Shown here: positions 7,446 through 60,918 of the stretch, piece by piece
Position numbering within the stretch: position 1 is the first letter of the stretch
Layout of the letters: every line of letters begins with the position of its first letter
Translations under genes and position numbers: made by a program
Assembly (NCBI GenBank): GCA_012103255.1
Contig: WLXD01000003.1
Span: 515,984 to 579,983 of the forward strand
Direction: 5' to 3'
DNA: 64,000 nucleotides
DNA from: Acidobacteriota bacterium
GTDB taxonomy: Bacteria; Acidobacteriota; UBA890; WLXD01
Notes under the pieces: generated by a model
The model's input: only the letters and a program-made list of their open reading frames with translations
The model's database searches: none
Told to the model about the DNA's origin: nothing

Positions 7446-7462
<17 letters not shown>
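7040..7462 (+). CDS. vapC: VapC-family PIN-domain ribonuclease toxin
   Basis: A 140-residue single PIN domain. Acidic metal-binding residues are visible as D6 (LIDTSVW), the Glu in QELLSG, the Asp in SAIDLLICAAA and the Asp in LTTDRDF, in the correct order and spacing for VapC RNases. The start is TTG at 7040, overlapping the vapB stop; a GTG at 7046 is the alternative. The last 17 bases overlap convergently with the 3' end of the Ser/Thr kinase gene, so the module sits flush against it. Target RNA is unknown. Confidence 0.92.
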
Positions 7463-10097
<2,635 letters not shown>

Positions 10098-11087: not shown

Positions 11088-13813
11088 TCATTCGGGATGT
11101 GGAGCGAGGCGTGCGAGCTCCTGGAACCAGTTCAGGCGCACCATGATCCGGTCGCGTGCACGCCCCTCGGCGTTCTCGTCTCGAACGAGGACGAGCAGAC
11201 GACCCTCGGCGTCAACGTCCTCGGGGACCTGGCCGCGGATCCTGAGCGTGCTGGAATGCGCCAGACGTGGTGGCACCAGACTCAGACTCTCCCCGGCGTA
11301 CTCCATCTCCACGACATATAGATCGAAGTCGTCGCCCGGGAAGTAAAGCCGGCTCCCGTCACGACTCCAGAACGGACGGAACGCTGTCCCGCGCGAAACG
11401 GTCCAGCGCCGACCGCCGTCGATTCCGCGTACGATACGTCTGGAACGCGCCACTCTCGGCCGACGCGTAGGCCACCAGACGACCGTCGGGCGAGACGCTG
11501 GCCCAGCGTTCCTCGGACGAGGAATCCAACATCGGACTGGTGTCCCGCGTATCCAGGTCGATGCTCCAGATCCTGTACCGCGTGCCGTCGGGCCGGCGGA
11601 CCCACTGGTCATAGAACAGCCGCTGGCCGTCGGGCGAGATCCCCGTCGGTGTCTGTTCGCCATCCGCCTCGAGTACAGGCTCCGCTGCGGTGCTGAAGTC
11701 CGCGCGGCGGCGCCAGATGTCGCGATCGCCTCGGGGGCGCCCCTCGTAGTAGACCCACTCCCCATTGGGTGACCAGACGGCGTCCTGCCCACCGCCGTCA
11801 GTGAACCGCGTCCGCGTCCCCACGGCCAGGTCGATGATCCAAAGATCGTTCACCGGGCCTGACGGGGTCGACTCACTGATCTCGACGGCGACTCGCTCTC
11901 CGTCGGGCGACAGCCTCGGGTTGTTGAAGGCCGACGGCGCCGTGTCGACCCGGTTGAGCGTGTCGTTTTCCACCCAGGCGAGCTCGAATCCTCCGCGATC
12001 AAGAGACTGTGCGCCAGGGACCCACAGCAGAGTGCCGTCGGAGGACACGGTGTACTGCGCCTCACCGGTGAAACCTCCAGCAACGCCCTGAAGCACGGGT
12101 ACGCTCCGGCCAGTCAGGGATCGGGTGGCCAGGTCGAAGGGCGCGGCGAATACGATGCCGCCACGGGTCCAGAGCAGATGCCCACTCGCGGCCCAGCGCG
12201 GATTCTGGCCCTCGTCCATCACCACCAAGGCGACGCCGGTGCTGAGGTCGAAGGCGGCGATCCCTCGATCCTCCGTGCCCATCGCCAGGTCTAGAAAGCC
12301 GATGCTGGAGCCAGGTACGACAGCCATCCGCGACGTCGAGGCAGCATCCGGCAGCCCGGTGATCTCGATCAATTCCGGCTCACCGCCGGTATCCGGCACG
12401 CGAGCCGGGATCGTGTACGACGGCCCGCTCAGGTAGATAAACCCGTCGTCTGCCCAGGTTGGCGCGGCGAGTCCCTGCCCCCCCCACGAAGAACGGCACA
12501 CCTCCATCGATCTGGATCTTCGCGAACCGATTACTGATCCGGTCGCGATAGACCACCCATTGGCCGTCCGGCGAGATCGACGGAATCTGCGCTTCAATCT
12601 CGCCGACCCGTTCCGTGACGCCGTCCTCGAAGTTTCGTCGGAAGAGCGCAGTAGCGCCGTTCCCGGCCTCGCCGATGAAGACCAACGTCGCGTTGTCGGC
12701 CGAGACGGCCATGCTGGAGTTGCCGTAGCGATGCACGATCGGATACTCGTCCGGCATCTCGATTGCGAAGGTCCTGAGTGGGGCCTCGGGTCGCAGCGCC
12801 GCGATCGGCTTCAGGAGCCAGGTCGCCATGGCGGCAAACGCCACGCCGATGACCAGCAGGGCGGCGCCGCGGGGAAACGGGATTCCCTGTGACAGGGGTG
12901 CATCCGGAGCCCGATCTGGGCCGAAAGAAGAAATAGGAGCTGCGGTGCCAGCCTCGATGTCGCGCAGCAGAAGCCGCAGGTCTATGGCGGCATCAGAGGC
13001 ATTCTGGTACCGCAGTTCCTTTTCTTTGCTCAGGCACTTCCGAATAATTCGCTGCAGCTCGGGGGGCGCGCCGGGGCGCGGGCCGTCGATCGGTTCCGGT
13101 TCGTCGGAGACGATCTTCGAGATCGTGTCGTAGACGTTCTTGCCAGCGAAGGGTCGTTGCCCGGTGCACATTTCGTAGAGGACGCACCCGAACGCGAACA
13201 TGTCGGCGCGGTGATCGATCTCGCCGCCTTGCGCCTGCTCCGGAGCCATGTAGCCGGCAGTGCCCATCACCTCGCCGGCGGCAGTACCGAGCATGGTGGG
13301 AGACATGCTGGCGTCACCTTCGCCAAGCGCCCCGGGCTCGGTGAGTTTGGCCAGGCCAAAATCGAGCACCTTGGCGTGGCCGTCCGTGGTCACGAAAATG
13401 TTCTCGGGCTTCAGATCGCGGTGCACGATCCCGGCGCGGTGCGCAGCGGCCAGACCTTCCGCGATTTCCGAGCCGAGGGTGAGGGCTCGCGACAGCGGCA
13501 GTGCAGGGTCTACCGCGTCGCGAAGGGTCTCGCCCTCGAGCAGTTCCTGCACCATGTAGTGCGTTCCCTGCTCTTCTCCAACGTCGAATACCGCGGCGAT
13601 GTGCGGGTGATTTAGAGCCGCTGCGGCGCGGGCCTCTTGCGCGAATCGCGCTAGCCGCGAGTCGTCCGCGGCGAAAGTCTCCGGCAAGACCTTCACCGCA
13701 ACCCGGCGACCCAGGCGAGTATCTTCCCCGAGGTAAACCTCGCCCATGCCGCCCGCGCCGAGCGGCTCTTGAATTCGGTACGGGCCGAGTTGTGTGCCCG
13801 CTTCAATCGTCAA
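11088..13813 (-). pseudogene. Ser/Thr kinase with beta-propeller, two +1 frameshifts
   Basis: The gene starts at TTG 13813 behind AAAGGAG (13821-13827). It encodes an intact kinase domain (about 12-275: LGAGGMGEVYLGED, HRDLKPENIF, DFGLAK, MAPEQ), a membrane helix near 310-328 (LLVIGVAFAAMATWLL) and a propeller. The propeller breaks twice. At 12478-12485 a run of eight C (G on the coding strand) replaces seven, since seven would give PFFVGGQGLAAPTW in frame. Near 11430-11440 one more extra base separates GAFQTY from VRGIDGGRRW. Joined, the three pieces make a normal protein ending at 11088. Both changes are single-base additions; either real decay or assembly errors would explain them. Confidence 0.82.
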
Positions 13814-13935: not shown

Positions 13936-14526
13936 ATGTCCGGCGACGTAACGAGACTGCTGCAGCAGTGGGGCGACGGAGACTCCGACGCCTTCGAAAC
14001 ACTCATCCCGTTGGTGTACGACGAGTTGCGCAAACTCGCGGCCGCCCACCTGCGCAATGAGCGCGGCGGCCACACGCTCCAGCCCACGGGCCTGGTGCAC
14101 GAGGCGTACATGCGTCTCACCGATCGGCCCACCGGCAACTGGAAGGGCCGCGCCCAGTTCTACGCGGTGGCAAGCCAGGTGATCCGGCGGGTGTTGGTGG
14201 ATCACGCCAGGGGACGATTGCGGCAGAAGCGTGGGGGCGGGACGCGCCATCTCGTGCTGATCGACGCCGGCGTGGACTGGCCGATCGAACGCTCGATCCA
14301 GATCGATCGGCTCGAGGACGCTCTCGACGCGCTCGCGGTACTGGACGCGACGCAGGCACGGATCGTCGAACTGCGATTCTTCACCGGGCTGACCATCGAC
14401 GAAGCCGCCGATGTACTCGACCTCTCGCCGGCCACGGTGAAACGGTCATGGAGTTCGGCCAGGGCCTGGCTGCTGCGCGAGCTTGGCGGACCGAGCCCCG
14501 CCCCAGCCCGACGCGCCACGGGATGA
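13936..14526 (+). CDS. ECF sigma factor, TIGR02999/Sigma70_ECF type
   Basis: A 196-residue ECF sigma factor. Region 2 contains LIPLVYDELRKLAAAHLR and GLVHEAYMRLTD; the AQFYAVASQVIRRVLVDHAR segment is diagnostic for the family often called TIGR02999; region 4 carries RFFTGLTIDEAADVLDLS and ATVKRSWSSARAWL. I chose the ATG at 13936, giving MSGDVTRLLQQW, over an upstream TTG. The stop overlaps the ATG of the kinase gene by four bases. In this family, sigma factor and adjacent membrane kinase commonly form one signalling unit, with the kinase thought to control sigma activity in place of a classical anti-sigma factor. Confidence 0.93.
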   Translation: MSGDVTRLLQQWGDGDSDAFETLIPLVYDELRKLAAAHLRNERGGHTLQPTGLVHEAYMRLTDRPTGNWKGRAQFYAVASQVIRRVLVDHARGRLRQKRGGGTRHLVLIDAGVDWPIERSIQIDRLEDALDALAVLDATQARIVELRFFTGLTIDEAADVLDLSPATVKRSWSSARAWLLRELGGPSPAPARRATG

Positions 14527-17117
14527 AACCGGAACAGTGGCAACGAATCCGCGAGGTACTCGAGCCTGCACTCGAGATCGAGCAGCCGCTCCGCACTGAT
14601 TGGCTGGACGATCACTGCCCTGCTGAGCTGCGCGGAGAAGTGGACGCACTCATCGCCGCATCGGCGGACGACGACACCCTGCTCGACGCCCCGGTTTTCC
14701 GCGCGGACGCTCCGATCGAGCCGGGTACTGAGGTCGGACCTTACGTGATCGACGAACTCGTGGGGGTAGGAGGCATGGGGGTGGTCTACCGCGCACAGGA
14801 CACACGCCTCCAGCGCCCGGTGGCCGTGAAGCTCCTCACCTTCGGCGGCCGCGAGAACGACATGCTCGCGGAAGCCCGCGCGGCTTCGGCCCTGAATCAT
14901 CCCAACATCGTGACCATTCACGATGTACTCGAATACCGCGACGCTCCCGCGATCGTCATGGAATTCGTCGAAGGCCAGACCGTCGAAGACAGGATCAAGA
15001 CGGGCCCCTTCCCTAGGTCGCGCGTCGCACGCTGTGCCCGCCAGATCGCCTCCGCGCTGGCGGCAGCCCACGACGCCGGCATCCTGCACCGTGACCTCAA
15101 GCCCGGAAACATCATCGAGCGCCCGGATGGGCTCCTGAAAGTGCTCGACTTCGGCATCGCCCGGCCTGCACGAAGGGCCGCGAGCGGTACGGCCCGCCCC
15201 GCCGGTACGGCAGGCTACGCAGCCCCGGAACAACTGGCCGGCGATGCGATGGACTCCCGCGCGGACATCTACTCGTTCGGCGCCCTGCTGCGCGCGATGT
15301 TTGGCGACCTGGAGGCGACGCCGGCGGGCTGGCGCACACTCATCGAGCGATGCACGGATAACGACCCGGACGATCGGCCGGCGTCGATGCAAACCGTGCT
15401 GGTCGAGATCGAGAGGCTCGAACGCCGCACTCGCCGTCCGGCGTACGCAGCGCTGGTCGCCGCGGCGCTCACGATCGCGATCGGGGCAGGCTTCCTGGCC
15501 AGCTGGATGCCGGACATGCCGCCTTCCTTCAATACCCGGGCTATCGCAGGAGCGGAAGAGTGGCGCCGCTTCCCGAGCCTGTCACCGGACGGATCTACGA
15601 TCGCGTTCTCGGCGCCCATGGACGGCGGCCACCGGCTGTTCATCCAGAACGTTGACTCCATGTCACCCGTGGACCTCGGAGTCGCCGGGCGCCACGCCGC
15701 CTGGTCGCCCAGCGGGGCCCAACTCGCCTATCGAAGTGACGCGGCGGGTGGCGGAATATTCCTCCTCGACGTGGCGAATCGCGAATCGCGCCGGCTCACG
15801 TCGGACGGATACTTCCCGTCGTGGTCGCCCGACGGCCGGAGCATCGTGTACTCGAGCGAGGGATTCGAGCGAGCGGAGGAGCGACCGACCACCGACAGCT
15901 TTCTCAGCGTGGTGGAGGTTGCGAGCGGCAGCGTCCGCCCGTTGACGGACGTCGGCTTCCAGAAGGACGCCATTCAGCCCGCGTGGTCCCCCGATGGGAA
16001 CCGCATCGCCTACTGGGCAATCGCTGCGGACGCGACTCGGTCGGTATGGACCGTCGCTGCCACCGGCGGCGCACCAGAACGCGTAACCGCGCTGGAAGAG
16101 TTCGCCTGGAGCCCCGCGTGGGCGCCCGACGGATGGCTGTACTGGGCCTCCGATCGCGGCGGCACCATGAACGCCTGGCGCGGTCGCATCGACGACATGG
16201 GCCACTTGACCACGGAGCCCCAGGCCATCGCCCTGCCGGCGAACTATGTCGCCTACCTCAGCTTCGCCCATACGGGCGCGATGAGCTTCTCTGCGCAGGC
16301 GCCTTCGGCCGAGATCTGGCGTGCGTCTTTGAGCGATGCGAGTCTCCCGCCGGAGCGCCTGACGGCACGGACGCGGCGCATTCTCCATCCGTCGGTGTCA
16401 CCGGATGGCGAGCACCTCGTGGCCTTCGAGGAATCCCCCCGGAACAATCTCGTCATGATGCGGTCGGACGGCAGCGACTTCCGCTACCTCACCGTGGGCA
16501 ACTACCGCGACCGCGGCTCGGTGTGGTCTCCGGACGGCACGTCGATCGCCTTCGGTACCAACCGCTCGGGCCAATACCAGATCTGGCGCATCGATCCGGA
16601 TGGGTCGAACCTACGCCCTGCCGTCTATGCCCCGATGGGCGCGCATTCTCCCGTGTGGTCACCCGGCGCGGGGCGGCTCGCATGGTTCACCCGTGGGTTT
16701 CGTCCCTACACGTCGACCCCGGACGGCAACAACGCGGTGCCGGTGCTGGACCCACCGACACCCGGATTCCGTGCCACCAGCTGGTCGCCCGACGGGCGCT
16801 ATCTCGCCGGCGTTCTCCGCAGCCTTGATGGCGAACGGCTTGGTGGTGCCGTGCTCGATTTCGAAACGAAGCGCTACCTTCGCCTCCATACCGGCTGCAC
16901 CTCGGTGCAGTGGATGCCCGACGGCACTCGCATGCTCTGCGTCGTCGAACGACGATTCCTCTACGTGGATCCGCGAATCGACGGGGTGACCGAGGCACGC
17001 GCCTTTCCATACGCAGTCGACCCACGGTTCGACGTTTCTCCGGACGGCCTGTGGCTGTACGCCGGCGTGCGTGAGGAAGTCCCGGAAATCTGGCTCGCGA
17101 CTCCGACCCCGAACTAG
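14523..17117 (+). CDS. Ser/Thr protein kinase with beta-propeller, coupled to ECF sigma factor
   Basis: Starting at ATG 14523 (MKPEQWQRIREVLEPALE) the protein has 864 residues. The first 60 are the small helical prefix typical of sigma-coupled kinases. The kinase domain (about 75-320) shows GVGGMGVVYRAQD, VAVKLL, HRDLKPGNII, LDFGIARP and AAPEQ. One membrane helix follows near 320-340 (ALVAAALTIAIGAGFLASWM), then a propeller of SPDG repeats (PSLSPDGSTIAF, SWSPDGRSIVYSS, SWSPDGRYLAGVL). The ATGA overlap ties it to the sigma gene. The propeller is expected outside the membrane and may sense ligands or stress, passing the signal to the sigma factor. Confidence 0.93.
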   Translation: MKPEQWQRIREVLEPALEIEQPLRTDWLDDHCPAELRGEVDALIAASADDDTLLDAPVFRADAPIEPGTEVGPYVIDELVGVGGMGVVYRAQDTRLQRPVAVKLLTFGGRENDMLAEARAASALNHPNIVTIHDVLEYRDAPAIVMEFVEGQTVEDRIKTGPFPRSRVARCARQIASALAAAHDAGILHRDLKPGNIIERPDGLLKVLDFGIARPARRAASGTARPAGTAGYAAPEQLAGDAMDSRADIYSFGALLRAMFGDLEATPAGWRTLIERCTDNDPDDRPASMQTVLVEIERLERRTRRPAYAALVAAALTIAIGAGFLASWMPDMPPSFNTRAIAGAEEWRRFPSLSPDGSTIAFSAPMDGGHRLFIQNVDSMSPVDLGVAGRHAAWSPSGAQLAYRSDAAGGGIFLLDVANRESRRLTSDGYFPSWSPDGRSIVYSSEGFERAEERPTTDSFLSVVEVASGSVRPLTDVGFQKDAIQPAWSPDGNRIAYWAIAADATRSVWTVAATGGAPERVTALEEFAWSPAWAPDGWLYWASDRGGTMNAWRGRIDDMGHLTTEPQAIALPANYVAYLSFAHTGAMSFSAQAPSAEIWRASLSDASLPPERLTARTRRILHPSVSPDGEHLVAFEESPRNNLVMMRSDGSDFRYLTVGNYRDRGSVWSPDGTSIAFGTNRSGQYQIWRIDPDGSNLRPAVYAPMGAHSPVWSPGAGRLAWFTRGFRPYTSTPDGNNAVPVLDPPTPGFRATSWSPDGRYLAGVLRSLDGERLGGAVLDFETKRYLRLHTGCTSVQWMPDGTRMLCVVERRFLYVDPRIDGVTEARAFPYAVDPRFDVSPDGLWLYAGVREEVPEIWLATPTPN

Positions 17118-17127
17118 ACCGACACCA

Positions 17128-20100
17128 TCAACGTTGCGGGGCGTTGGCGGCGATCCGCTCGTACACCGCGATCGCCGCCTCCGCGGCCTGCCGGTATCTA
17201 GCGCGCGCCGCCTCGTCGGTGAAACGGTCGCGCTGCTGCACTCGTTCCCACTGGTCGCGCACCACCTGAGCCAGATAGGCGGCCGACTCGGCATCGGTAT
17301 AGCCGCGCCCCTCGCGGGTGACGTACACAGGCGTCGTGTGCGCGAACGCGTAACCGTCGGTGATCGCTCGTGATGCCGGCCCCACCACCATCACGGCGAT
17401 CCAGGCATTGTCCGGCACGTCCACGAACCGGCGGATCTCGAACTCGCGGTCGCGGCCCCGCACATCGATTGTGTGCGCCGCTTCGCCGTTCACCAGGATC
17501 TCCAGCCGCGCCAGTGGGGCCACGCTCGTCACATTGACGCGAACTTCGAGCTGGGTCGTGTCGTCGGCAAGGAGTGGAATTTCCTCACCGGGCCCGAAGC
17601 CGGAACCCTCCTCGGCACGCGGGGGAGTCACCTTCAGGTCGACAAACGGGCCGTTCGTCGCCACGGTGCGTCCCGCGGCCACGGCTCGCAGCCAACTCGG
17701 CACATCGACGTTGCCGTCGGTGAACGCGTACGTGCGCGCCGACCCAGGTGGGGCATCGCGCCAGACGTCGGCGAAGTTGTCCGAGCCGCCCGTGGCGGGC
17801 AGCCGGAAGCCGGCGTTGAGGAAGTGCCAGTACAACTCTGCGTTGAACAGGTCGTCGTAGGGGTAGTTGGCGACGTCGTAGAAGTCGCCCTTGCCCAGGG
17901 CCACGTCGAGCGCGATCTCCGAGCCGGCCACGTTGCCGTTGCGACTGTAGGGGTGCATGTAGCCGCCGATTCCGCCCTGTTCGTGTGCGGCGTCGAGCCA
18001 ATCGGCGTTGAGCGCGTCGCCGGTGAAGAACGTTGCGCCGGTGCCACCGCTCAAAGGAGTCACGAACTCACTGATCCCGAGGAGGCCGACATGGCCGAAG
18101 GAGCCGCGAAACTCCTGCGCATACTGGAGCACGTGCCGCATGGTCGACAGCGGTGACGGCTCACCGGTGAGGTCATTCCAGCGACCCATGATCCGCGTGC
18201 CATCCATGTGGATCAACGCGTTGGTGATGTGCAGATCTTCCGCGACCAGTTGCTCGAAGTAGTCCTCGTGCGACAGGCCGTACCGTCCCTGGTGTAGGTC
18301 GTGCGAGTGCGTGTCGCCGGACACCCAGCCGCTGGCCGGGATATCGGCGATGCGTTCTGGGCTCAGTGTCACCGCGGTCACGGCGTCCGCGGGCACCTCG
18401 ACACGCAGGTAGGCGGGAGCGAACTCTGGCCCGCGGCGCGCTTCGATCTCGACCGTTCCAGCGGGCACGGCCAACTCGGCCACACCGTCGGTATGGAAGT
18501 AGTGCATGTCGGTGCTCGAGATCACGCGGTGGAACTCGCCTTCCGGCGCATATCCACGCAGGTCCGACGCCTGGACATGCAGCCGCGACACGACCGGGGC
18601 CTCACGCTCACCGTCGGCCACGACGATGCGCAGAGTCCCGCTGGGCACTGCGGGTACGAGTTCGTCGATGATCACCGGACTCCATCCGGCGCGACGTGCC
18701 CCACCCGCCGGTGCCGTGTAGAGCCGTGTCGGACCGCCGCGATTGCTCACGAAGGCCACACGCGCACCGTCGGGGCTCCATACGCCGTCGAGCTCGTGGT
18801 CGGGATCCGCCGTGAGCCGAGCACGCGAGCCGCCCACGGCTGGCACTGCCGCCAGGTCGTTACTTCCCGACTCATCCGACACGTACAGGATGTTGTTGCT
18901 GTCGGCGCTCCAGCGCGGCTTGGCGCGGAACGCGGTTTCCTCGTAGTGCACCAATGTCGCGCGCTCGAGCGCGGTAGCTGCGTCGCCGATCGCCGAGGCC
19001 GGGATGGTCCAGATGCCGCCAGTCCCCAGACGTCCTGGCACGGGTGACACGAACGCCAGCGCGCCGCCGCCCGGCGACCAGGAAGACTGGATCTGGTGTC
19101 CTCGGCCGGCCACGACAACCTCGGGCGGCAAGGGCTCCGTCTCGTTCGCCGGCACGGTGGCGCGATAGATGTCGAAGCTGCCGTCACGCGCGCTGGAGAA
19201 GTACACCGCGCTGCTGTCGTCCGACCACGTTGGTTGCACGTCCACCTGAGGATCCGTGCTGAGCATCACGGGCTCACCACCGCCCGCCGGCACGATTCCC
19301 ACATCGAGATTGCCGTCGAGATCACGTGAGAACGCGACCCACTCGCCATCGGGGCTCCAGCTCGGCTCCGAGTAATAGGCCGGCCCGCGGGTGAGAGCAA
19401 TCGCGGCGCCGCCGTCGGCCGGGATCCGCCAGAGGTCGCCGCGCATGGCAAAGACCAGCTCGGACGAGTCAGGACTCCAGTCGGGGTCAAGCGGGCCCGT
19501 CGACACCGCCGGGAGCATGTGCACCTCGGCGCGGATGCGGTTCGCCCCAACGTACGGGTAGCGCATCACGCGCCCCGGAAGAATGCGCGCGCTCACGATC
19601 TTCGAGAGGCGCGGGAAGTCGTCGTCGAGATGCGCGTTGCCTTCCGTCAGAATCTGGCCCTGGTTGCCGCCCCGCATTCCCCCGCCCGCGTTCTCGCCGT
19701 AGCCGGGGTAGAACGCGTCGACAACATCCATCCCGCTCACCACACGACCGAACGGCATGAAGCCCTGCTCGTCGTAGTCGGGGTTGTCGCGCAAGTTCAC
19801 GTAGATCTGGGTAGTGCGCGTGTCGGGCTCATTGAGCATGGCGAACGACACGACGCCGCGGAGGCTCGAGTGACGCTGCGGATCGTCAGGAATCGTGCGG
19901 TCGTACCAGACCCGGTTCACGTCGGGGTCTCCCGACAGGCCGAACTGAGCAAACACCCCCGAACGCACTCGATATACACGCGTGTCGTCGTAGTAGCCCA
20001 AGCGCACGAGGTTGTAGAGCCGATCCACGCCGCGCGGCGACCAACGACGGAACACTTCAACGGTGAAGTCCCCTTCGCTGGTCTCGAACGCCACGCGAAA

Positions 20101-20271
20101 CAACTCCGGCGCTCGCTCCTCCCATGCCGCGCCATCCGGATCGAGAAGCGCGCCACGAACCGCCTGAGCGCGGCCGTCAGAACTCAGCAGGAGTCCCGCC
20201 GCCAGCGCGATCGCGAGAGCCGACGCAACTCTCAATGGGCGAACTCCGAACTGCCTTATGGTGACTTTCAA
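17128..20271 (-). CDS. Cyclophilin - TolB propeller - PHP/CehA metallohydrolase fusion
   Basis: The 1047-residue secreted protein has three parts. After a signal peptide (LRVASALAIALAAGLLL), residues about 52-235 form a cyclophilin-type peptidyl-prolyl isomerase domain (FRVAFETSEGDFTVEVF, VYRVRSGVFAQFG, GVVSFAML, FMPFGRVVSGMDVVD). Residues about 250-550 are TolB/PD40 repeats (DWSPDSSELVFAM, SWSPDGEWVAFSRD, VWSPDGARVAFVS). The last half is a CehA/McbA-type PHP domain: GDTHSHD metal site, the His in FGHVGLLG, YMHPYS and ATGGSDNF. The first Met is TTG at 20271; a TTG at 20235 behind GGAG is a good alternative. Each domain is known; this order in one chain is unusual. Confidence 0.85.
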   Translation of the reverse strand: MKVTIRQFGVRPLRVASALAIALAAGLLLSSDGRAQAVRGALLDPDGAAWEERAPELFRVAFETSEGDFTVEVFRRWSPRGVDRLYNLVRLGYYDDTRVYRVRSGVFAQFGLSGDPDVNRVWYDRTIPDDPQRHSSLRGVVSFAMLNEPDTRTTQIYVNLRDNPDYDEQGFMPFGRVVSGMDVVDAFYPGYGENAGGGMRGGNQGQILTEGNAHLDDDFPRLSKIVSARILPGRVMRYPYVGANRIRAEVHMLPAVSTGPLDPDWSPDSSELVFAMRGDLWRIPADGGAAIALTRGPAYYSEPSWSPDGEWVAFSRDLDGNLDVGIVPAGGGEPVMLSTDPQVDVQPTWSDDSSAVYFSSARDGSFDIYRATVPANETEPLPPEVVVAGRGHQIQSSWSPGGGALAFVSPVPGRLGTGGIWTIPASAIGDAATALERATLVHYEETAFRAKPRWSADSNNILYVSDESGSNDLAAVPAVGGSRARLTADPDHELDGVWSPDGARVAFVSNRGGPTRLYTAPAGGARRAGWSPVIIDELVPAVPSGTLRIVVADGEREAPVVSRLHVQASDLRGYAPEGEFHRVISSTDMHYFHTDGVAELAVPAGTVEIEARRGPEFAPAYLRVEVPADAVTAVTLSPERIADIPASGWVSGDTHSHDLHQGRYGLSHEDYFEQLVAEDLHITNALIHMDGTRIMGRWNDLTGEPSPLSTMRHVLQYAQEFRGSFGHVGLLGISEFVTPLSGGTGATFFTGDALNADWLDAAHEQGGIGGYMHPYSRNGNVAGSEIALDVALGKGDFYDVANYPYDDLFNAELYWHFLNAGFRLPATGGSDNFADVWRDAPPGSARTYAFTDGNVDVPSWLRAVAAGRTVATNGPFVDLKVTPPRAEEGSGFGPGEEIPLLADDTTQLEVRVNVTSVAPLARLEILVNGEAAHTIDVRGRDREFEIRRFVDVPDNAWIAVMVVGPASRAITDGYAFAHTTPVYVTREGRGYTDAESAAYLAQVVRDQWERVQQRDRFTDEAARARYRQAAEAAIAVYERIAANAPQR

Positions 20272-20358: not shown

Positions 20359-21243
20359 ATGGCCGACCGACGCAAACTCAAGAACATCCTCCTGCAGCCA
20401 CGACTGCAGTTCCGGTACGCGTTCAAGTTCTTCGTGTTCTCGGCACTGTCCATCGGTGCGATTCAGGTTGTCTCCTACTTCCTGGTCTCCAGGGTCGTCG
20501 AGCGCGTGCTCACCGAAGCCGGCCCGCAGACCGCGGTGCTGGCCCCGGTGATCGACATGGCCGTCCGAACCGAGTTGCTGCGCTCGGCCTGGATGCTACC
20601 GGTTGTGTGCGTCGCCGCCCTCGCTTTCACATCGAAGATGCTGCACCGATTCATCGGGCCGGCGGTACCGATCAAGCGGCACGTCGATCGCCTCGCCGAC
20701 GGCGACTACGGTGCAGAACTGAAGACGCGCTCCAAGGACGAGATGCAGGACGTTGTCGACTCGCTCAACAAACTGAGCGGCGCGCTGCGAACCCGACACT
20801 CCGTAACAAACAGCGAGGTGCGCGCTTCCCGCGAAGCCGGCTTTTCGCTAGTTGAACTTCTCGTCGTGCTCGCCGTGATCATGATCATCGGCATGATCGG
20901 CGTCTCCCAGTTCATCACCGCATACGACCGCAGTCGGCAGCGCAGCACGCTAGGCGATCTGCGCACGCTGGCCTCAGCCAACGGCACGTATTCGGTGGAC
21001 CACGGCGACTACGCCGACACGCTGCCGGATCTGGCGCCGTACCACCTCGGCACGCTGCCGCCCGTCGACCGTTGGGGATTCGCCTGGGAATACAGTCAGT
21101 CCGATTCGCGCTACACACTGTCGTCACGCGGATCGGATGGAGCCGCAGGTCCAGCTCCGCCGGCGGCATGGGACGGCGAACCATTCGAATGCGATCTGGT
21201 GGTGCAGAACGGGACCTTCACGCAGGCTCCGGGCCAGAGCTAG
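20359..21243 (+). CDS. Membrane HAMP protein fused to a type IV pilin-like domain
   Basis: A single 294-residue frame without internal stop. Residues about 20-42 and 72-92 are membrane helices flanking a short extracytoplasmic loop. Residues about 93-145 are HAMP-like (IGPAVPIKRHVDRLADGDYG, then KDEMQDVVDSLNKLSGALR). This is followed directly by a prepilin motif, REAGFSLVELLVVLAVI, with a G-F cleavage site and Glu at +5. A pilin-like globular part (about 180-290) follows: DLRTLASANGTYSVDHGDYA, PPVDRWGFAWEY. If prepilin peptidase cut here, the HAMP half would become a very large leader. A GTG at 20818 could start a separate short pilin, but no ribosome site supports it. Confidence 0.75.
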   Translation: MADRRKLKNILLQPRLQFRYAFKFFVFSALSIGAIQVVSYFLVSRVVERVLTEAGPQTAVLAPVIDMAVRTELLRSAWMLPVVCVAALAFTSKMLHRFIGPAVPIKRHVDRLADGDYGAELKTRSKDEMQDVVDSLNKLSGALRTRHSVTNSEVRASREAGFSLVELLVVLAVIMIIGMIGVSQFITAYDRSRQRSTLGDLRTLASANGTYSVDHGDYADTLPDLAPYHLGTLPPVDRWGFAWEYSQSDSRYTLSSRGSDGAAGPAPPAAWDGEPFECDLVVQNGTFTQAPGQS

Positions 21244-33545: not shown

Positions 33546-33881
33546 CAGATCGAAAAGTTCCTCCCCCTGAAGCCGCGGGTGTCCCTGATGTTACTCACCT
33601 TGCGTGATAGTCCTGCGCACGGGTACCGACTGATGCACGCCATCGAGGAGCGTTCAGGTGGAACGGCGCGGATGGATCCCGGACTTGTCTACCGAACGCT
33701 CGTCCGTCTGGGCACGCAAGGACTGATCAAGGAGTGCCCGCCCCCGGGCGATAGCACAGACCGACGGCGTCGCTACTACCGCCTGACGGAAGTCGGACGC
33801 CGGGTCGTGGACGCGGAAGTCGAGCGGCAGCAACTGTTGCTTGGCCAGCTTCAAGCGGCTCCGGAGGTTGGGCGCCAGTGA
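33534..33881 (+). CDS. PadR-family transcriptional regulator
   Basis: A 115-residue winged-helix repressor: KPRVSLMLLTLRDSPAHGYR, recognition region PGLVYRTLVRLGTQGLI, wing GDSTDRRRRYYRLTEVGRR, and a C-terminal helix for dimerisation. The ATG at 33534 lies inside a 26-bp palindrome and has no Shine-Dalgarno; starts at 33516 or 33519 are alternatives. The stop overlaps the GTG of the permease gene by four bases, so regulator and permease are translationally coupled. PadR proteins usually repress a transporter gene until a ligand binds. Confidence 0.92.
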   Translation: MQNAQIEKFLPLKPRVSLMLLTLRDSPAHGYRLMHAIEERSGGTARMDPGLVYRTLVRLGTQGLIKECPPPGDSTDRRRRYYRLTEVGRRVVDAEVERQQLLLGQLQAAPEVGRQ

Positions 33882-36514
33882 TTGTCCGCGTCTCGACAGC
33901 GCTCTACAGGGCCGCTCTGCTCTGCTACCCGATGGCGTTCCGCACGCGCTTCGGCCGCGAGCTACTTTCGGGCTTCGAAGACGAACTGCGTGGTCGTGTC
34001 GCGACTTCTACTTCCGCAGCGCTCGGGCTCACACTGCTCCGCTGCGGCGGTGCTGTTGGGCAGGGACTCGCTGCTCGCGCGCAGACTGAGTTCCGGAGCC
34101 GGGTCCTCGCAGGCTGGTCGCAGGAACTCCGGGTGGTGGCGCGCAACCTGATGCGGTCGCCGGGGCACAGCCTCGTCTCGCTCGCGATCCTCAGCACCGC
34201 TGTCGGAACCTCGACGCTCCTCTTCGCGATCGTCTACGCCACGTTGCTCGCACCGTCTCCATACCCCGACGCAGAACGGCTCGTGGTCGGCTGGGGCAGC
34301 AACGTTTCGAACGGCCAACTACGCGACGTGGTTTCCGGTGCCAACTACGTCGACATGTCCGACGGGTCGACCAGCTTTGTCGCGCTCGGCGCCATCAAGG
34401 GCGATGGCGCGGTCCTTGAGGAAGAGGGCCGGCCGGTGGTGGTGCCGGCTCTCCGCGTGACACCCGAGTTCTTCGAAGCTCTCGACGTCCCCGCGACGCT
34501 CGGCCGAACGATCGATACGACCGAGACCTTCAGCGGGTCCGAGCCGGTGATCGTGCTCTCCCACCAACTCTGGATCGAACGGTTCGAGAGCAGCCCTGAC
34601 GTCGTCGGCACACGGATACGCGTCGACCTGGAGTTCGCCACCGTAATCGGAGTGATGGGAGCAGAGTTCGGCACCCTGTTCCCAGTGCAGGCGTACTTGC
34701 CGCTCTACCGCGACGTCATCGCCGCGCAGGATCGCACCTCGTACAACTACTGGATGATCGGACGCCTCGCTGAGACCGCAACGATCGAACGAGCTTCGGG
34801 GGAGCTCGACGCCACAATGGATGTGATCGCGGAGACGGACCCGCGACTGCGTAACTGGTCCGTACTCCTGGAGCCCCTGGACACCATCGGCAAGGTGCCG
34901 GTACGAGCGCCCATGCTCGCCCTGTCTGCGGCGGTCGGTCTCCTCGCGCTAGTGGCAACCTTCAATCTCGCGGGCCTTGAACTTGTTCGCGGCACGACCC
35001 GAACGCCCGAATGGGCAGTGCGGAGGGCACTCGGAGGAGGGCGCGGACACCTTGTGCGCCTGATGGTGAGCGAAACCGCTCTTCTCGCCGGTGTCGGGTG
35101 CCTGTTGAGTTTCCCCGTCGCAACCGGCGGGCTCCGGCTGCTCAGGCACCACGCACCCGCCACCATCCCAGTGCCGGGCTCCGCGGCGCAGGTCACTTCG
35201 TTCCACGCCAGCTTTGGCTGGGCGACGCTTCTGTGGATGGCGCTGACCGCGCTCGCGATAATCGGACTCTCTCGAGTCCCGGCGCTCGTTCAGGCTCGCG
35301 GCGCTCGACTGGACACAAGCACGCGCACGACCGCTACGGCGCGCATGGGTCGCGTGCGCGATTCCTTTGTCCTCCTTCAGCTCGCGTTCGCGTCGGCGCT
35401 TCTGATGGGAGCTGCACTCGCCGGGTCCACGATGAAGAACATCCTCGATATCGACGTCGGCCTGGCACCAGAGAACGTCCTCACGATGTACGCCGGGAAC
35501 GTCAGCGGCGACGCGGCCACCCGCGCCAGATACTTCACCGACATCCTCGGAGCTGTGCAGCAAGTGCCTGGGGTTCGCTCTGTCGGTGTGAACGACTACG
35601 TCCCCTTGCAGTCCGAAGACGACTTCGCGGGCCTATTGCTTCACGATCGCCCCCCGCCACCGCCTGGATCCGGACTGCGTGAAGAATGGCGCCGAGTGAG
35701 CTCCGACTACTTCGCGACCGCCGGCGTGGCCGTCCTGGATGGGCGCGGGTTCGAGCCTGCTGACTACACCGGTGGACGCCCCGTGGCGGTGATCAATCGA
35801 GCGTTCGCTAGCAAGCACTACCCCGGAGCTGATCCGGTGGGCGAAACGTTGACGATCTGGAACGGCGGTATTGGCGACGCGACCATCGTGGGCGTGGTCG
35901 CCGATGTCCGGCGTCGCGGGATTCTGGTCGCGGCCCCGCCGGTGCTCTACGCGCCGTTCCATCTGGGATCCCGCGGCAACATGGCGGTTTTTGTCGCTAC
36001 CGAAGGCCCTCCCGAAGCGTTACTCGACAGCGTGCGCGAGGCAATCTGGTCGGTGGACTCGTCGCAACCGATCGACCGGGTGCTGACTCTCACTCAGGTC
36101 GTAGATGCGGCGGTGGGCTTGCATCGGTTCACGCTCGCCGTGCTCCTTGCACTGGCGGGGATCGCCGTTCCGCTCGCGTCGCTGGGAGCCTTTGGCGTGA
36201 CCGCCTTCGCCCTCCGGGCTCGCCGCCGGGAACTCGGCATCAGACTTGCGCTCGGCGCGACGCACCAACGGCTCGCAGCGCGAGTGCTGCGCGACGCGGT
36301 TGCTCTCGGCGTCGCCGGCATCACCGGCGGACTCGGACTGGCGGCACTGGCCGGCAGCCTGGCGCGGTCGCTGCTCGTTGGCGTAACGCCCTACGCGATC
36401 GTGCCCGCCGCCGCGGTGAGCTGCATCGTGCTCGCCAGCGTGATCATCGCCACGCTGATTCCGGTACGCGGCCTTCGGCGCGTGGAAGCGGCGGAGTCAC
36501 TCCGTGTCGAGTAA
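33878..36514 (+). CDS. ADOP-type FtsX/MacB permease
   Basis: An 878-residue permease of the acidobacterial duplicated orphan permease type. Residues about 5-70 are the small prefix domain (ALYRAALLCYPMAFRTRFG). Then come two repeats of MacB periplasmic core plus FtsX: first helix near 92-115 (SLVSLAILSTAVGTSTLLF), first periplasmic domain to about 335, FtsX1 about 340-460, second anchor about 490, second periplasmic domain to about 740, FtsX2 about 750-870 (RRRELGIRLALGATHQRL). No ATPase gene is nearby, hence orphan. Starts with GTG overlapping the padR stop. Likely envelope export or lipoprotein-type mechanotransmission; substrate unknown. Confidence 0.92.
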   Translation: MIVRVSTALYRAALLCYPMAFRTRFGRELLSGFEDELRGRVATSTSAALGLTLLRCGGAVGQGLAARAQTEFRSRVLAGWSQELRVVARNLMRSPGHSLVSLAILSTAVGTSTLLFAIVYATLLAPSPYPDAERLVVGWGSNVSNGQLRDVVSGANYVDMSDGSTSFVALGAIKGDGAVLEEEGRPVVVPALRVTPEFFEALDVPATLGRTIDTTETFSGSEPVIVLSHQLWIERFESSPDVVGTRIRVDLEFATVIGVMGAEFGTLFPVQAYLPLYRDVIAAQDRTSYNYWMIGRLAETATIERASGELDATMDVIAETDPRLRNWSVLLEPLDTIGKVPVRAPMLALSAAVGLLALVATFNLAGLELVRGTTRTPEWAVRRALGGGRGHLVRLMVSETALLAGVGCLLSFPVATGGLRLLRHHAPATIPVPGSAAQVTSFHASFGWATLLWMALTALAIIGLSRVPALVQARGARLDTSTRTTATARMGRVRDSFVLLQLAFASALLMGAALAGSTMKNILDIDVGLAPENVLTMYAGNVSGDAATRARYFTDILGAVQQVPGVRSVGVNDYVPLQSEDDFAGLLLHDRPPPPPGSGLREEWRRVSSDYFATAGVAVLDGRGFEPADYTGGRPVAVINRAFASKHYPGADPVGETLTIWNGGIGDATIVGVVADVRRRGILVAAPPVLYAPFHLGSRGNMAVFVATEGPPEALLDSVREAIWSVDSSQPIDRVLTLTQVVDAAVGLHRFTLAVLLALAGIAVPLASLGAFGVTAFALRARRRELGIRLALGATHQRLAARVLRDAVALGVAGITGGLGLAALAGSLARSLLVGVTPYAIVPAAAVSCIVLASVIIATLIPVRGLRRVEAAESLRVE

Positions 36515-40285: not shown

Positions 40286-40624
40286 ATGGGACGTAAGGTA
40301 TTGGGTGAACTCGAACACCTCCTCCTGGTGGCCATCTTGCGCCGTGGAGATGACGCATACGGCGCCGCGATCATCGGAGAGATCGAACGACGGACCGGCC
40401 AGGAATTGTCGCGCGCCGGCGCCTACATCGCCCTGCAGCGGCTCGAGCGAAAAGAGCTGATCAGCGCACGCGATGGCGAGCAGACCGCCGATCGTGGCGG
40501 CCGCCCGCGCCGCTACTTCGAGCTGACCTCGGCCGGGCGCGCCAAACTAGACGCATCTGCGGCGTCCCTGTTCGCGATGTGGGAAGGACTCTCACGGGAC
40601 GCCATTGAGGCCGACTCCCAATGA
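40286..40624 (+). CDS. PadR-family transcriptional regulator
   Basis: A 112-residue PadR protein: GELEHLLLVAILRRGDDAYG, EIERRTGQELSRAGAYIALQ (recognition), RLERKELISARDGEQT and wing GGRPRRYFELTSAGRAKL. The ATG follows GGGAG in a short leader. It overlaps the ADOP gene by ATGA. Two 13-bp inverted repeats in the upstream region are its likely operators. Confidence 0.92.
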   Translation: MGRKVLGELEHLLLVAILRRGDDAYGAAIIGEIERRTGQELSRAGAYIALQRLERKELISARDGEQTADRGGRPRRYFELTSAGRAKLDASAASLFAMWEGLSRDAIEADSQ

Positions 40625-43299
40625 GCCCACACAGCAGGTCCCCCCGCCTCGCGCGGCGGCTGATCGAGATCTTGACGCCGAGAGCCCAACGGACCGGACT
40701 CGTTGGCGACCTGGAGGAAGCGCACAGCCAGATCGTTCAGAGCGCCGGAGCGGCGGCGGCGCGCCGCTGGTACTGGCGACAGACGTTGAGCACTCTCCTG
40801 CGGATGCCTGCTGAGCAATGGGCCGCAAGGCCGGCACGAGCGGTGATGAGGATCGCCCGAGCCTCTGGCAGTGATATCCGTTTTGCGGCGCGGGGATTGA
40901 CCAAGCAGCCCGGATTCGCGCTACCGGCACTGTGTATTTTCACGGTCGGCGTGGCCGCCAACGCAGTAGTTTTCAGCTTCGTCGACGCCGTTCTTCTGCG
41001 GTCGCTCCCCTATCCCAATGCCGAAGATGTCGTGATGTTGTGGCCACGGGTGACGGAAGCGAATCGCGGCGAGCTCATGAGCACGCCCACCTACCGACAT
41101 GCGATGGCGTGGGCCGAACGATCACAAGAGTTCCCCTCGCTCGCGGCCTACGAGTCGGCGGTCACTACGCTCCGGACGCCCGCGCGCACGGCTCCCATTA
41201 ACGGTCTCAACATCTCAGCAAGCTGGAACGATGTGCTCGGCGTCGAGCCGATCCGCGGCCGGAGCTTCACCACCGCCGACGACACGCCCGGCGCCCCGCC
41301 GGTGGCGATCATCAGTTTCGATCTCTGGCACAACGAACTGAACGCGGACCCGGCGATCATCGGCAGGGCCATCGATCTGGACGGCACCTCGACAGCTGTG
41401 GTCGGCGTCATGCCGGAAGACTTCTGGTTCTTCGACCCCTACATGTTCTTTCGATCCTCGGGAGATCGAAGTACTGCGGATGTCCACCTTTGGCTGCCGT
41501 TGCATAGACGCTCGTGGGAAGGGTGGATCGCGGACTATCCGTCGCTCCGCGTGTTAGCGCGACGAGCTCCGGGCCTCTCGACGGCCGCGGCCCGCGATGC
41601 GGCGGAAGCTGTTGCCCGTGGCCTGGGCCCCATCGGGGATACCGAGACAATCGGTGTTGAGGTCAAGAGCCTCGCTGATGAACTCCGAGAGCCAGTTCGC
41701 GCGCAGTTGACCGCTCTGTTTGCGGCCGGGCTCCTGGTGCTTGCGATCGTGGCCGCCAACCTCGGCAGCTTGTCCCTCACACGCGCCGACGGCCGACGGG
41801 TAGAAATGGCTGTCCGTGCCGCCCTGGGAGCCGGGCGCGCTCGGCTTCTGCGACTAGCGCTCGCCGAGAACCTCTTGATCGCTCTAGCCGGTAGCTTCGG
41901 TGGCCTGTTGTTGGCGGCCGTGGTGCTCGACACAGTCGTTCGCATCGCACCGCGCGCCCTTCCGCTGGCCCACTCGATTCACCTCGATGCCCGGGTCGCA
42001 GCTTTCGGTGTCCTTGTTGCCGCCCTCGGGGCTCTGGCGGGCGGCCTTGTTCCTGCTTTCCGAACAGTGGCGGATTCGATCCCGACCCAGCTGACTCGAG
42101 CCGGTCGAACTGAAGACGTCGGCGGCAATCGTACGCGTTCGATCCTGGTAGCGGCCGAGGTAGCCATATCAGTGACGCTGCTCATCGCCGCCACCCTGAT
42201 GCTCCGGACCTTCGTCGACCTGCACAGTCAGGAGCCAGGCTTCGACGCCGAGTCCGTGCTGACTTTCCAGTCCTCGCTCACGACCGTGCCCGGTGAACCG
42301 CCCAACCTGGACTTCTACCCGGAACTCCTTCGCACCATCCAGACCATTCCGGGGGTGGTCGCCGCCGGTGGCACAACGCATCTGCCCTTCTCAGAGTGGG
42401 GCGCCGGGGCACCCGAGATCATCATCGGCGATGCTGAGCCGGATCCCGATACTCGCGGTGAGCGCATGCAAGTGCACTGGATTCTGCCGGGCTATGTCGC
42501 GGCCGCCGGGATCGATGTATTGCAGGGCGAAACGCTGAAGTGGAGCGACGAGCCCACTACCAACGCGATCGTCAACGCGGCCTTCGTCGAACAGCACCTC
42601 GATGGACAGCCTGCGCTGGGAACCAGCGTCGGCACGGTTTCGCGTAGCGAGGGAATCTCGGTGACGCGATTCCGGATCGTAGGCGTGATCGGCAACTACG
42701 CTCAGAGTTCCCTTGGCGAGAAACCGCAGCCGCGGATCTTCGTCGACGGCCGCGACAAGGTCTGGATGCACTTCATCGTACGAGCTCAGGGCGAGCCGGC
42801 CGCGCTCACGGCGACCATCCGCGGAATCGCCCGAGATCTCGATCCAGCCCAGCCTCTCGGGAAATTCGCTCGCTGGCAGTACCTCGTGGAAGAATCCCTG
42901 TCGAGCGAGCGCTTCTATTCGAGCCTCCTCGGGGCCTTCGGCCTGATCGCGCTGCTTCTGGCCGCCGCCGGGGTGTACGGCACGGTGTCGTATACCGTGA
43001 GCGCCCGACTGCCGGAGTTCGGCATTCGCAAGGCACTCGGGGCTGACGACCGCACGATCGCCAGGCTCGTCGTGAGCAGCGGGCTCGCGCCCGTTCTCGC
43101 CGGAGCCCTCGTGGGGCTCCTGGGTGCGACGGCCGCCACACGCTCGATGGGTGCGCTCCTGCACGGAACGTCACCAACGGATCCGTCGAGTTACGCGTTG
43201 GCCGTCGGCGTGTTCCTGGGCGTCGCCGTGCTGGCGGTTCTACCACCAGCCCGCCGCGCATCACGCTTGGACCCGATCGAGGTACTCCGCACCGACTGA
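40621..43299 (+). CDS. ADOP-type FtsX/MacB permease
   Basis: The 892-residue permease has a prefix domain (about 8-70: RLARRLIEILTPRAQRTGLV, DLEEAH), then the first anchor helix near 100-120 (LPALCIFTVGVAANAVVFSF), a MacB periplasmic core (PNAEDVVMLWPRV, FDLWHNELNADPAIIG), FtsX1 about 355-490, a second anchor near 510, a second core, and FtsX2 about 765-890 (RLPEFGIRKALGADDRTI). The prefix differs from that of the 33878 and 46334 permeases, so two prefix types occur in the window. Overlaps padR by ATGA. No ATPase partner visible. Confidence 0.92.
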   Translation: MSPHSRSPRLARRLIEILTPRAQRTGLVGDLEEAHSQIVQSAGAAAARRWYWRQTLSTLLRMPAEQWAARPARAVMRIARASGSDIRFAARGLTKQPGFALPALCIFTVGVAANAVVFSFVDAVLLRSLPYPNAEDVVMLWPRVTEANRGELMSTPTYRHAMAWAERSQEFPSLAAYESAVTTLRTPARTAPINGLNISASWNDVLGVEPIRGRSFTTADDTPGAPPVAIISFDLWHNELNADPAIIGRAIDLDGTSTAVVGVMPEDFWFFDPYMFFRSSGDRSTADVHLWLPLHRRSWEGWIADYPSLRVLARRAPGLSTAAARDAAEAVARGLGPIGDTETIGVEVKSLADELREPVRAQLTALFAAGLLVLAIVAANLGSLSLTRADGRRVEMAVRAALGAGRARLLRLALAENLLIALAGSFGGLLLAAVVLDTVVRIAPRALPLAHSIHLDARVAAFGVLVAALGALAGGLVPAFRTVADSIPTQLTRAGRTEDVGGNRTRSILVAAEVAISVTLLIAATLMLRTFVDLHSQEPGFDAESVLTFQSSLTTVPGEPPNLDFYPELLRTIQTIPGVVAAGGTTHLPFSEWGAGAPEIIIGDAEPDPDTRGERMQVHWILPGYVAAAGIDVLQGETLKWSDEPTTNAIVNAAFVEQHLDGQPALGTSVGTVSRSEGISVTRFRIVGVIGNYAQSSLGEKPQPRIFVDGRDKVWMHFIVRAQGEPAALTATIRGIARDLDPAQPLGKFARWQYLVEESLSSERFYSSLLGAFGLIALLLAAAGVYGTVSYTVSARLPEFGIRKALGADDRTIARLVVSSGLAPVLAGALVGLLGATAATRSMGALLHGTSPTDPSSYALAVGVFLGVAVLAVLPPARRASRLDPIEVLRTD

Positions 43300-45995: not shown

Positions 45996-46337
45996 ATGCT
46001 CGATGTTGATGATCACCTGCCGCTGACCACCGTTGCGTTCGAGATCCTGCTTGCCGTGGGCGAGCGCGAGACGACGGGCTACGAGGTGATGCTGGCGATC
46101 GAAGCCCGCACGGCTGGACGGCTGAATCCGAATCCCGGCACGCTGTACCGCGCCATCGATCGGCTTGTGGGCGATGGACTTATCGAAGTCACGCCGACCG
46201 CGGGCGGTGGCACCAAGCCGCGGCGGCGCCTTTCGATCTCTGAACTGGGCCGTGCCGTCCTGGCTGCAGAATCGGACAGGCTGGCGGCCCAGATCGACGC
46301 TGCGCGCTCGCTCGGTGCCTCCGGGAGCACCCGGTGA
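45996..46337 (+). CDS. PadR-family transcriptional regulator
   Basis: A 113-residue PadR protein from ATG 45996 (MLDVDDHLPLTTVAFEILLA), with GYEVMLAIEARTAGRL, recognition segment NPNPGTLYRAIDRLVGDGLI and wing GGGTKPRRRLSISELGR. A GGAG lies 12 bases before this ATG. An ATG at 45963 would add 11 residues but falls within the operator-like repeats and lacks a ribosome site. Stop overlaps the GTG of the permease gene. Confidence 0.9.
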   Translation: MLDVDDHLPLTTVAFEILLAVGERETTGYEVMLAIEARTAGRLNPNPGTLYRAIDRLVGDGLIEVTPTAGGGTKPRRRLSISELGRAVLAAESDRLAAQIDAARSLGASGSTR

Positions 46338-50034: not shown

Positions 50035-50391
50035 ATGACACCTCGACCCCAGGCTGACGGCCTTGGCCCCACACCCAGTTCACTGACTCTGGTAACTGTG
50101 CAGATTCTGGTGAGCCTCGGTCGCGGGCCCATGCACGGGTATGGCATCAAGCTGGACATCGAAGAACGCACCGACGGTGCCATGACTCTCGGCTCCGGAA
50201 CGCTCTACCAGGCGATGCAGCGTCTCGAGAAGCAGGGGCTCGTTCAGTCTTCGGTCGCCCAGGAGCCAGGCGGACGTCGCGGGCGCGTGTACGAACTCGA
50301 GCCGCTCGGCCGCGATGTACTCGAACGCGAGCTCGAGCTGATGCAGCGCACCGTCGCGTTCGCCGCGGCTGGCTCGGAGTCGCCGGCATGA
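50035..50391 (+). CDS. PadR-family transcriptional regulator
   Basis: A 118-residue PadR protein: LTLVTVQILVSLGRGPMHGY, recognition region GSGTLYQAMQRLEKQGLV and wing GGRRGRVYELEPLGRDVL, then a C-terminal helix. I prefer ATG 50035, nine bases after GGAG; an ATG at 49984 would match a leaderless start but adds a polar 17-residue extension. It overlaps the ADOP gene by ATGA and is preceded by three phased repeats that are its likely operators. Confidence 0.9.
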   Translation: MTPRPQADGLGPTPSSLTLVTVQILVSLGRGPMHGYGIKLDIEERTDGAMTLGSGTLYQAMQRLEKQGLVQSSVAQEPGGRRGRVYELEPLGRDVLERELELMQRTVAFAAAGSESPA

Positions 50392-60567: not shown

Positions 60568-60918
60568 ATGGGTACAGAGCAAATCATCGGAATCGATCGA
60601 ACGGCCCTGCGAGCATTCATGCACGACTCGGGACTCGACGACGCCGACATCGCCGAACTGCTGGATGTCTTCCTCGCGGAAGCTCCTGGCCAGATACGTG
60701 CGGTCCAAAAAGCGGCCGCCGCGCGCGATGCTCAGTGTCTCGCGTCCGCGGCTCACGCTCTCAAATCGCCGGCGGCCTTGCTCTGTGCACCACGCCTCGC
60801 CGAGATCCTTTCAGGAATCGAGGAGCAGGCACGCGACGGGGGGATAGCAAGTGGCCACATCATCGACGCAGTCGAGGCAGAAGTCCGACACGTCGCGCGG
60901 CAAACCGTCGACGACTGA
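60568..60918 (+). CDS. Stand-alone Hpt phosphotransfer protein
   Basis: A 116-residue all-helical Hpt domain: DDADIAELLDVFLAEAPGQI, the phospho-accepting His in ASAAHALKSPAALLCAPRL, and a final helix (IIDAVEAEVRHVARQTV). It would shuttle phosphate from the receiver of a hybrid kinase to another receiver. The kinase at 56415 lacks an Hpt and the next gene encodes a receiver, so both partners are adjacent. The end overlaps the ATPase gene by 68 bases if the latter starts at GTG 60851. Confidence 0.92.
   Translation: MGTEQIIGIDRTALRAFMHDSGLDDADIAELLDVFLAEAPGQIRAVQKAAAARDAQCLASAAHALKSPAALLCAPRLAEILSGIEEQARDGGIASGHIIDAVEAEVRHVARQTVDD

Follow-up and report, generated by a model that had tools for sequence, protein, structure and literature searches.

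In a 4.8 Mb Acidobacteriota genome assembled into nine contigs (G000), a single reading frame encodes a cyclophilin, a TolB-like propeller and a metallohydrolase of the CehA/McbA type, one after the other, in a protein predicted to be secreted. The frame lies at 17128-20271 on the minus strand of the window, by which we mean the whole stretch of 64,000 nucleotides that was analysed, and it runs for 1047 codons from a TTG start with no internal stop. Its features are the following.

17128..20271, minus strand: whole gene, putatively secreted cyclophilin / TolB-like propeller / CehA-McbA metallohydrolase of 1047 aa; same architecture in the genomes G001 and G003
20164..20271, minus strand: predicted N-terminal signal peptide, residues 1-36, with a hydrophobic core and a RAQA end, judged by eye
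19567..20151, minus strand: cyclophilin domain, residues 41-235 (Pfam Pro_isomerase; cyclophilin matches in the PDB)
19969..19971, minus strand: codon of the predicted catalytic arginine, R101 (Arg in 65/65 aligned rows)
18637..19536, minus strand: TolB-like PD40 beta-propeller, residues ~246-545 (four Pfam PD40 matches; TolB matches in the PDB)
18334..18636, minus strand: beta-rich linker domain, residues 546-646, read from the sequences by eye and present in homologous CehA/McbA proteins too
17323..18333, minus strand: CehA/McbA PHP-type metallohydrolase domain, residues 647-983 (NCBIfam NF038032)
18301..18309, minus strand: predicted metal-ligand motif H655-S-H657 (H655 in 31/32 rows, H657 in 32/32)
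18112..18114, minus strand: predicted metal ligand E720 (32/32 rows)
18091..18093, minus strand: predicted metal ligand H727 (32/32 rows; aligns with McbA His467)
17953..17955, minus strand: predicted metal ligand H773 (32/32 rows; aligns with McbA His504)
17779..17781, minus strand: predicted metal ligand D831 (32/32 rows)

The original prediction, that three unrelated modules are joined in one exported protein, is borne out by Pfam and NCBIfam matches within this one uninterrupted frame. Pro_isomerase (PF00160) is matched at residues 59-186 (E 2.8e-19, 70.3 bits against a gathering cut-off of 21.7), PD40 with an E-value of 1.1e-24, and CehA_McbA_metalo (NF038032) at residues 647-983 with 169.1 bits, the curated cut-off being 80. 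The NCBIfam model of TolB itself gives 113 bits, well under its equivalog cut-off of 343, and the propeller is therefore TolB-like and not TolB. N-termini are hydrophobic in G001 and G003 as well, and we infer export to the periplasm or beyond. A search of the PDB with the hydrolase part gave no sequence at E-values up to 10, a PHROGs search gave no match, and an AlphaFold2 model computed from an 11-row alignment (the window protein, L049 and nine separate cyclophilins) had a mean pLDDT of 48.4 and was usable only in part of the propeller. The gene converges with that of a Ser/Thr protein kinase (14448-17117, plus strand), 11 bp away, which is one of three such kinases in the window (the others at 7446-10097 and 12380-13813, both minus strand), two of them with PD40 propeller repeats. 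On its other side, one plus-strand frame (20359-21243) carries a membrane/HAMP part (residues 98-144) followed by a prepilin N_methyl motif (157-180) with a weak GspG-like match, and is apparently a pseudopilin behind a HAMP module.

The same order of domains in one frame recurs in a second genome of the genus (G001; 75% identity over residues 20-844, where the contig ends) and in another genus of the family (G003; 60% identity over residues 21-1044). This recurrence excludes chance, a frameshift between separate genes and an assembly chimera as the source of the architecture. Of the class's 9 genomes, 3 carry the N-terminal fusion; G002, the remaining genome of the genus (77% complete), contains a separate cyclophilin only. 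All domains evolve under purifying selection by the NG86 method, the cyclophilin most strongly: between the window protein and that of G001, the cyclophilin has a dN of 0.131, the hydrolase (residues 546-844) one of 0.152 and the propeller one of 0.251; dS, at 1.1-1.5, is near saturation.

For the cyclophilin active site, 65 rows were aligned (the window protein, the three other fused proteins, 60 further cyclophilins and E. coli PpiA), with sites numbered as in human CypA. The equivalents of Arg55 (R101 in the window protein), Gln63 (Q109) and Ala101 are kept in every row, and that of Gln111 in 4/4 fused rows and 50/60 others, the remaining 10 having Glu. Phe113 is represented by Tyr or Phe, and Trp121 is absent, as in PpiA, its position being held by Asp or Arg. 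At the position of F60 the 60 unfused rows have F, Y or W, and the fused proteins of G003 and G430 have F; in the window protein (V106) and in G001 alone it is Val, so that the aromatic pocket residue is missing there and isomerase activity may be weak. This loss weakens the claim of activity that the sequence would otherwise suggest and leaves the claim of fold as it was. In comparison with secreted bacterial cyclophilins, for which PpiA serves as the reference, the domain shares the fold by sequence and keeps the Arg, Gln, Ala and Gln; it differs from the PpiA type in belonging to a subfamily with an LDxxGFxPFG-type motif, in the change of F60 to Val within the genus, and in its fusion to a hydrolase.

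The hydrolase was aligned in 32 proteins, among them McbA of strain XWY-1 and a CehA. The window protein has the complete predicted ligand set of the CehA/McbA family, HxH, E, H, H, D, its GDTHSHD motif supplying His655 and His657. His467, His504 and His477 of McbA are reported to be crucial (PMC8292978); the third of these aligns with V737, at a position that is not conserved. The same paper names His313, 315, 453 and 495 for CehA of strain CFD-1 (PMC8292978), and no single offset fits these numbers to the three CehA/McbA sequences compared. A loss of catalytic residues in both enzymes was thus not seen, the PHP ligands being kept together with the Arg, Gln, Ala and Gln of the cyclophilin, and both domains appear competent as judged from their residues. 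That the hydrolase would cleave a phosphoester or carbamate-like bond is a guess drawn from family membership.

Propeller-hydrolases without a cyclophilin are common in Acidobacteriota and Gemmatimonadota, and the cyclophilin is the addition. With the whole protein as query, matches at E 1e-70 occur in 36/396 genomes of Acidobacteriota, a count that takes in the three fusions and a single match to the cyclophilin alone, and in 96/298 of Gemmatimonadota, including a few cyclophilin-only matches; among 246 genomes of Planctomycetota there was none at E 1e-75, a weak result since no known-positive genome was at hand to validate the empty answer. The closest group, here called type I, is 46-54% identical to the window protein, and its 23 rows come together as a clade supported at 100/100. 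G308 is the unfused relative for which the start was inspected, and there a signal peptide immediately precedes the propeller; the cyclophilin of the window protein follows a signal peptide and occupies the place of that of its relatives. The same propeller-hydrolase body, with no cyclophilin, is seen in Croceicoccus marinus (WP_066850668.1, 26% identity over residues 237-984) and on L002 of the same genome (28% identity). The carbaryl hydrolases CehA and McbA share the HxH, Glu, His, His, Asp set and the NF038032 match; tblastn matches to McbA and CehA begin at residues 585-590, those to plasmid-borne copies cover residues 585-1008, and neither a cyclophilin nor a PD40 propeller is present in their part of the alignment, unlike in the window protein. 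A further multidomain cyclophilin is encoded in the same genome, a HEAT-repeat + cyclophilin protein of 698 aa (L093:7255-9351, minus strand), with another partner and a distant cyclophilin (32% identity). Each of the domains and the pairing of propeller and hydrolase were already known; the new part is the recurrent link to one cyclophilin subfamily, and searches of the open-licence part of PMC turned up no paper that describes either the three-domain fusion or this link.

This link was followed through 32 type-I loci, of which two are the parts of a single interrupted case (G396). Six of the loci have a cyclophilin: the window, G001, G003, G430, G687 and G308. The propeller-hydrolase of G430, a member of the Gemmatimonadota, carries it at the opposite end, in one 1012-aa frame that runs from propeller through hydrolase to cyclophilin, with no signal peptide before the latter; the fusion sits inside its contig, which rules out a chimera, and the close relatives G427 (69%) and G486 (65%) do without the C-terminal cyclophilin. 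In G687 the stop of a separate cyclophilin gene and the start of the propeller-hydrolase gene share the sequence ATGA; this cyclophilin (L160:5671-6582, minus strand) has an N-terminal extension that is cut by the contig end and for which neither Pfam nor NCBIfam gave a match. The two genes of G308 are divergent with abutting starts, at 5333 (minus) and 5320 or 5332 (plus). At the other 26 loci no cyclophilin was found in the flanks examined, which extended from a few bases to several kb; the link is therefore optional, and a cyclophilin is not generally required as a neighbour. Of 139 loci that matched the propeller-hydrolase at more than 120 bits, repeats of one place counted, only those of the same six genomes also have a cyclophilin, and fusions amount to 3/396 sampled Acidobacteriota and 1/298 sampled Gemmatimonadota.

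The C-terminal fusion of G430 arose independently of the N-terminal ones. In the propeller-hydrolase tree the three N-terminal fusions group together (clade support 100/100), G430 falls inside a Gemmatimonadota group, and a single origin of all four is rejected (p-AU 3.3e-152); with the cyclophilin alignment, which is shorter, the same test of shared ancestry for the N- and C-fused domains gives a borderline result (p-AU 0.051). All six linked cyclophilins belong to one subfamily (27 rows, 100/99), within which they are scattered; the ordinary secreted paralogue that these genomes also encode falls outside it in the tree. Adjacent unfused pairs number two against an expected ~0.036 (p ~6e-4), a rough estimate that assumes five cyclophilin genes per 3.7 Mb. 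In a hand count over 298 Gemmatimonadota, with type I defined by at least 46% identity, a cyclophilin of at least 205 bits occurs in 16 of the 24 genomes with type I and in 30 of the 274 without it (Fisher p 2.5e-9), which counts as supporting evidence only, because the threshold was chosen afterwards, does not split the cyclophilin subfamilies cleanly, and was applied to related genomes that are not independent. That the same kind of isomerase is joined to, or stands beside, the same kind of enzyme elsewhere suggests that the two work together.

The cyclophilin subfamily has other partners too, and these vary in type, with exported hydrolases frequent among them. In G667 it is fused in frame to a lipoprotein-like PF04199 cyclase, a family of metal-dependent hydrolases.

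L165:4692-6653, plus strand: PF04199-cyclophilin fusion of G667, with an ATG at codon 178

The cyclase and the cyclophilin are adjacent separate genes in G688 (L158) and G630 (L152), the cyclase of G630 reading in two frames, so that it may be broken or badly assembled. Elsewhere an amidohydrolase gene lies 3 bp downstream of the cyclophilin (G641), an alpha/beta hydrolase 40 bp downstream (G563), and an amino-acid permease overlaps the cyclophilin gene by 4 bp (G603); G629 and G673 have a gamma-glutamyltranspeptidase gene next to it on the opposite strand, and G379 has an endonuclease I as the neighbour. Other Gemmatimonadota frames, 582-1510 aa long and with a cyclophilin at their end, were taken as spurious upstream frames and not as fusions, because their N-terminal stretches vary in length and Pfam gave the cyclophilin alone (L161, L164, L166, L168 and the 1194-aa frame of L170); among the frames scanned, that of L165 was the only one with a second domain, PF04199.

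The reading we prefer, at a rough probability of 0.45, is that the cyclophilin assists the hydrolase as a helper, in cis here and in trans elsewhere. The C-terminal half of the exported protein would be a metal-dependent CehA/McbA (PHP-like) hydrolase with the propeller in front of it, and the cyclophilin a prolyl isomerase that aids its folding, its metal loading or its activity and stability; the fusion in the window would then be the in-cis form of a helper that other species encode as a separate neighbouring gene. Such a role would explain why the cyclophilin is shared by different hydrolase families and why it is found at either terminus of the protein or encoded by a gene of its own. On a broader and more tentative view, the periplasmic subfamily of Acidobacteriota and Gemmatimonadota might be a portable, client-dedicated foldase or activator for secreted metallohydrolases, available in cis at either end. 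Several observations count against a helper, namely that the link is optional, that F60 is lost in the window protein and in G001, that the cyclophilin tree by itself leaves the independence of the N- and C-terminal fusions borderline, that the subfamily is also common in the genomes without this hydrolase counted above, and that fused clients are no richer in prolines than unfused ones (42-45 vs 37-49). A periplasmic helper devoted to one secreted hydrolase has a precedent in Lif/LipH, the lipase-specific foldase (PMC7046727, PMC13381987); the comparison is one of working principle, Lif being neither a cyclophilin nor fused, and the foldase role here is a proposal.

Among the alternatives, it is rather unlikely, though worth weighing, that the cyclophilin is a docking or scaffold module, which would bring the hydrolase to a proline-containing target or partner in the envelope by binding it, with isomerase activity incidental. 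Such a module would fit with the Val that replaces F60 in two N-fused proteins, those of the window and of G001, with the Asp or Arg at the Trp121 position, with its occurrence at either protein end in different lineages and with the diversity of the partner hydrolases; the catalytic Arg and Gln are nevertheless kept throughout the alignment, and the separate cyclophilins encoded beside a hydrolase have signal peptides of their own, which is less natural for a targeting tag. The original prediction went further and suggested the processing of a folded extracellular substrate; spelled out, isomerase and hydrolase would act in turn on one proline-containing substrate that carries an ester, carbamate or phosphoester. 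Two active sites that look intact on one exported chain would allow this, and recurring linkage is also compatible with two steps in the same pathway, but the proposal fares poorly and we regard it as improbable: most relatives have no cyclophilin neighbour, as the 26 loci make plain, the surroundings of the hydrolase genes showed no conserved set of peptide-processing genes, and members of this cyclophilin subfamily are also paired with unrelated hydrolases, the PF04199 cyclase and the amidohydrolase among them. Partners that differ this much in chemistry speak against a single common substrate and for a portable foldase or activator in the periplasm. That two abundant exported proteins were joined neutrally or almost so, without functional coupling, would fit the rarity of the fusion and the lack of linkage between the two genes in most genomes; this reading likewise deserves little credence, given that the same subfamily pair is linked in four separate ways, that adjacent unfused pairs exceed expectation, and that the cyclophilin is the most conserved part of the protein.

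To our knowledge, the clients of bacterial cyclophilins are mostly unknown, and a linkage between cyclophilin and hydrolase that recurs in separate lineages names a candidate client and allows a test in one gene. If the helper reading is true, the fusions are natural foldase-client pairs in which the activation step could be read directly, and they would offer a handle on the many CehA/McbA enzymes that are still unassigned.

Two further observations concern the rest of the window. Five large MacB/FtsX-type permeases are clustered at 33878-36514, 40621-43299, 46334-49027 and 50388-53093 (plus strand) and at 53116-54909 (minus strand), and they resemble the duplicated orphan permeases of Acidobacteriota. 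At 60851-63139 on the plus strand lies a Type II/IV secretion ATPase (T2SSE) with a response-regulator receiver domain at its C-terminus.
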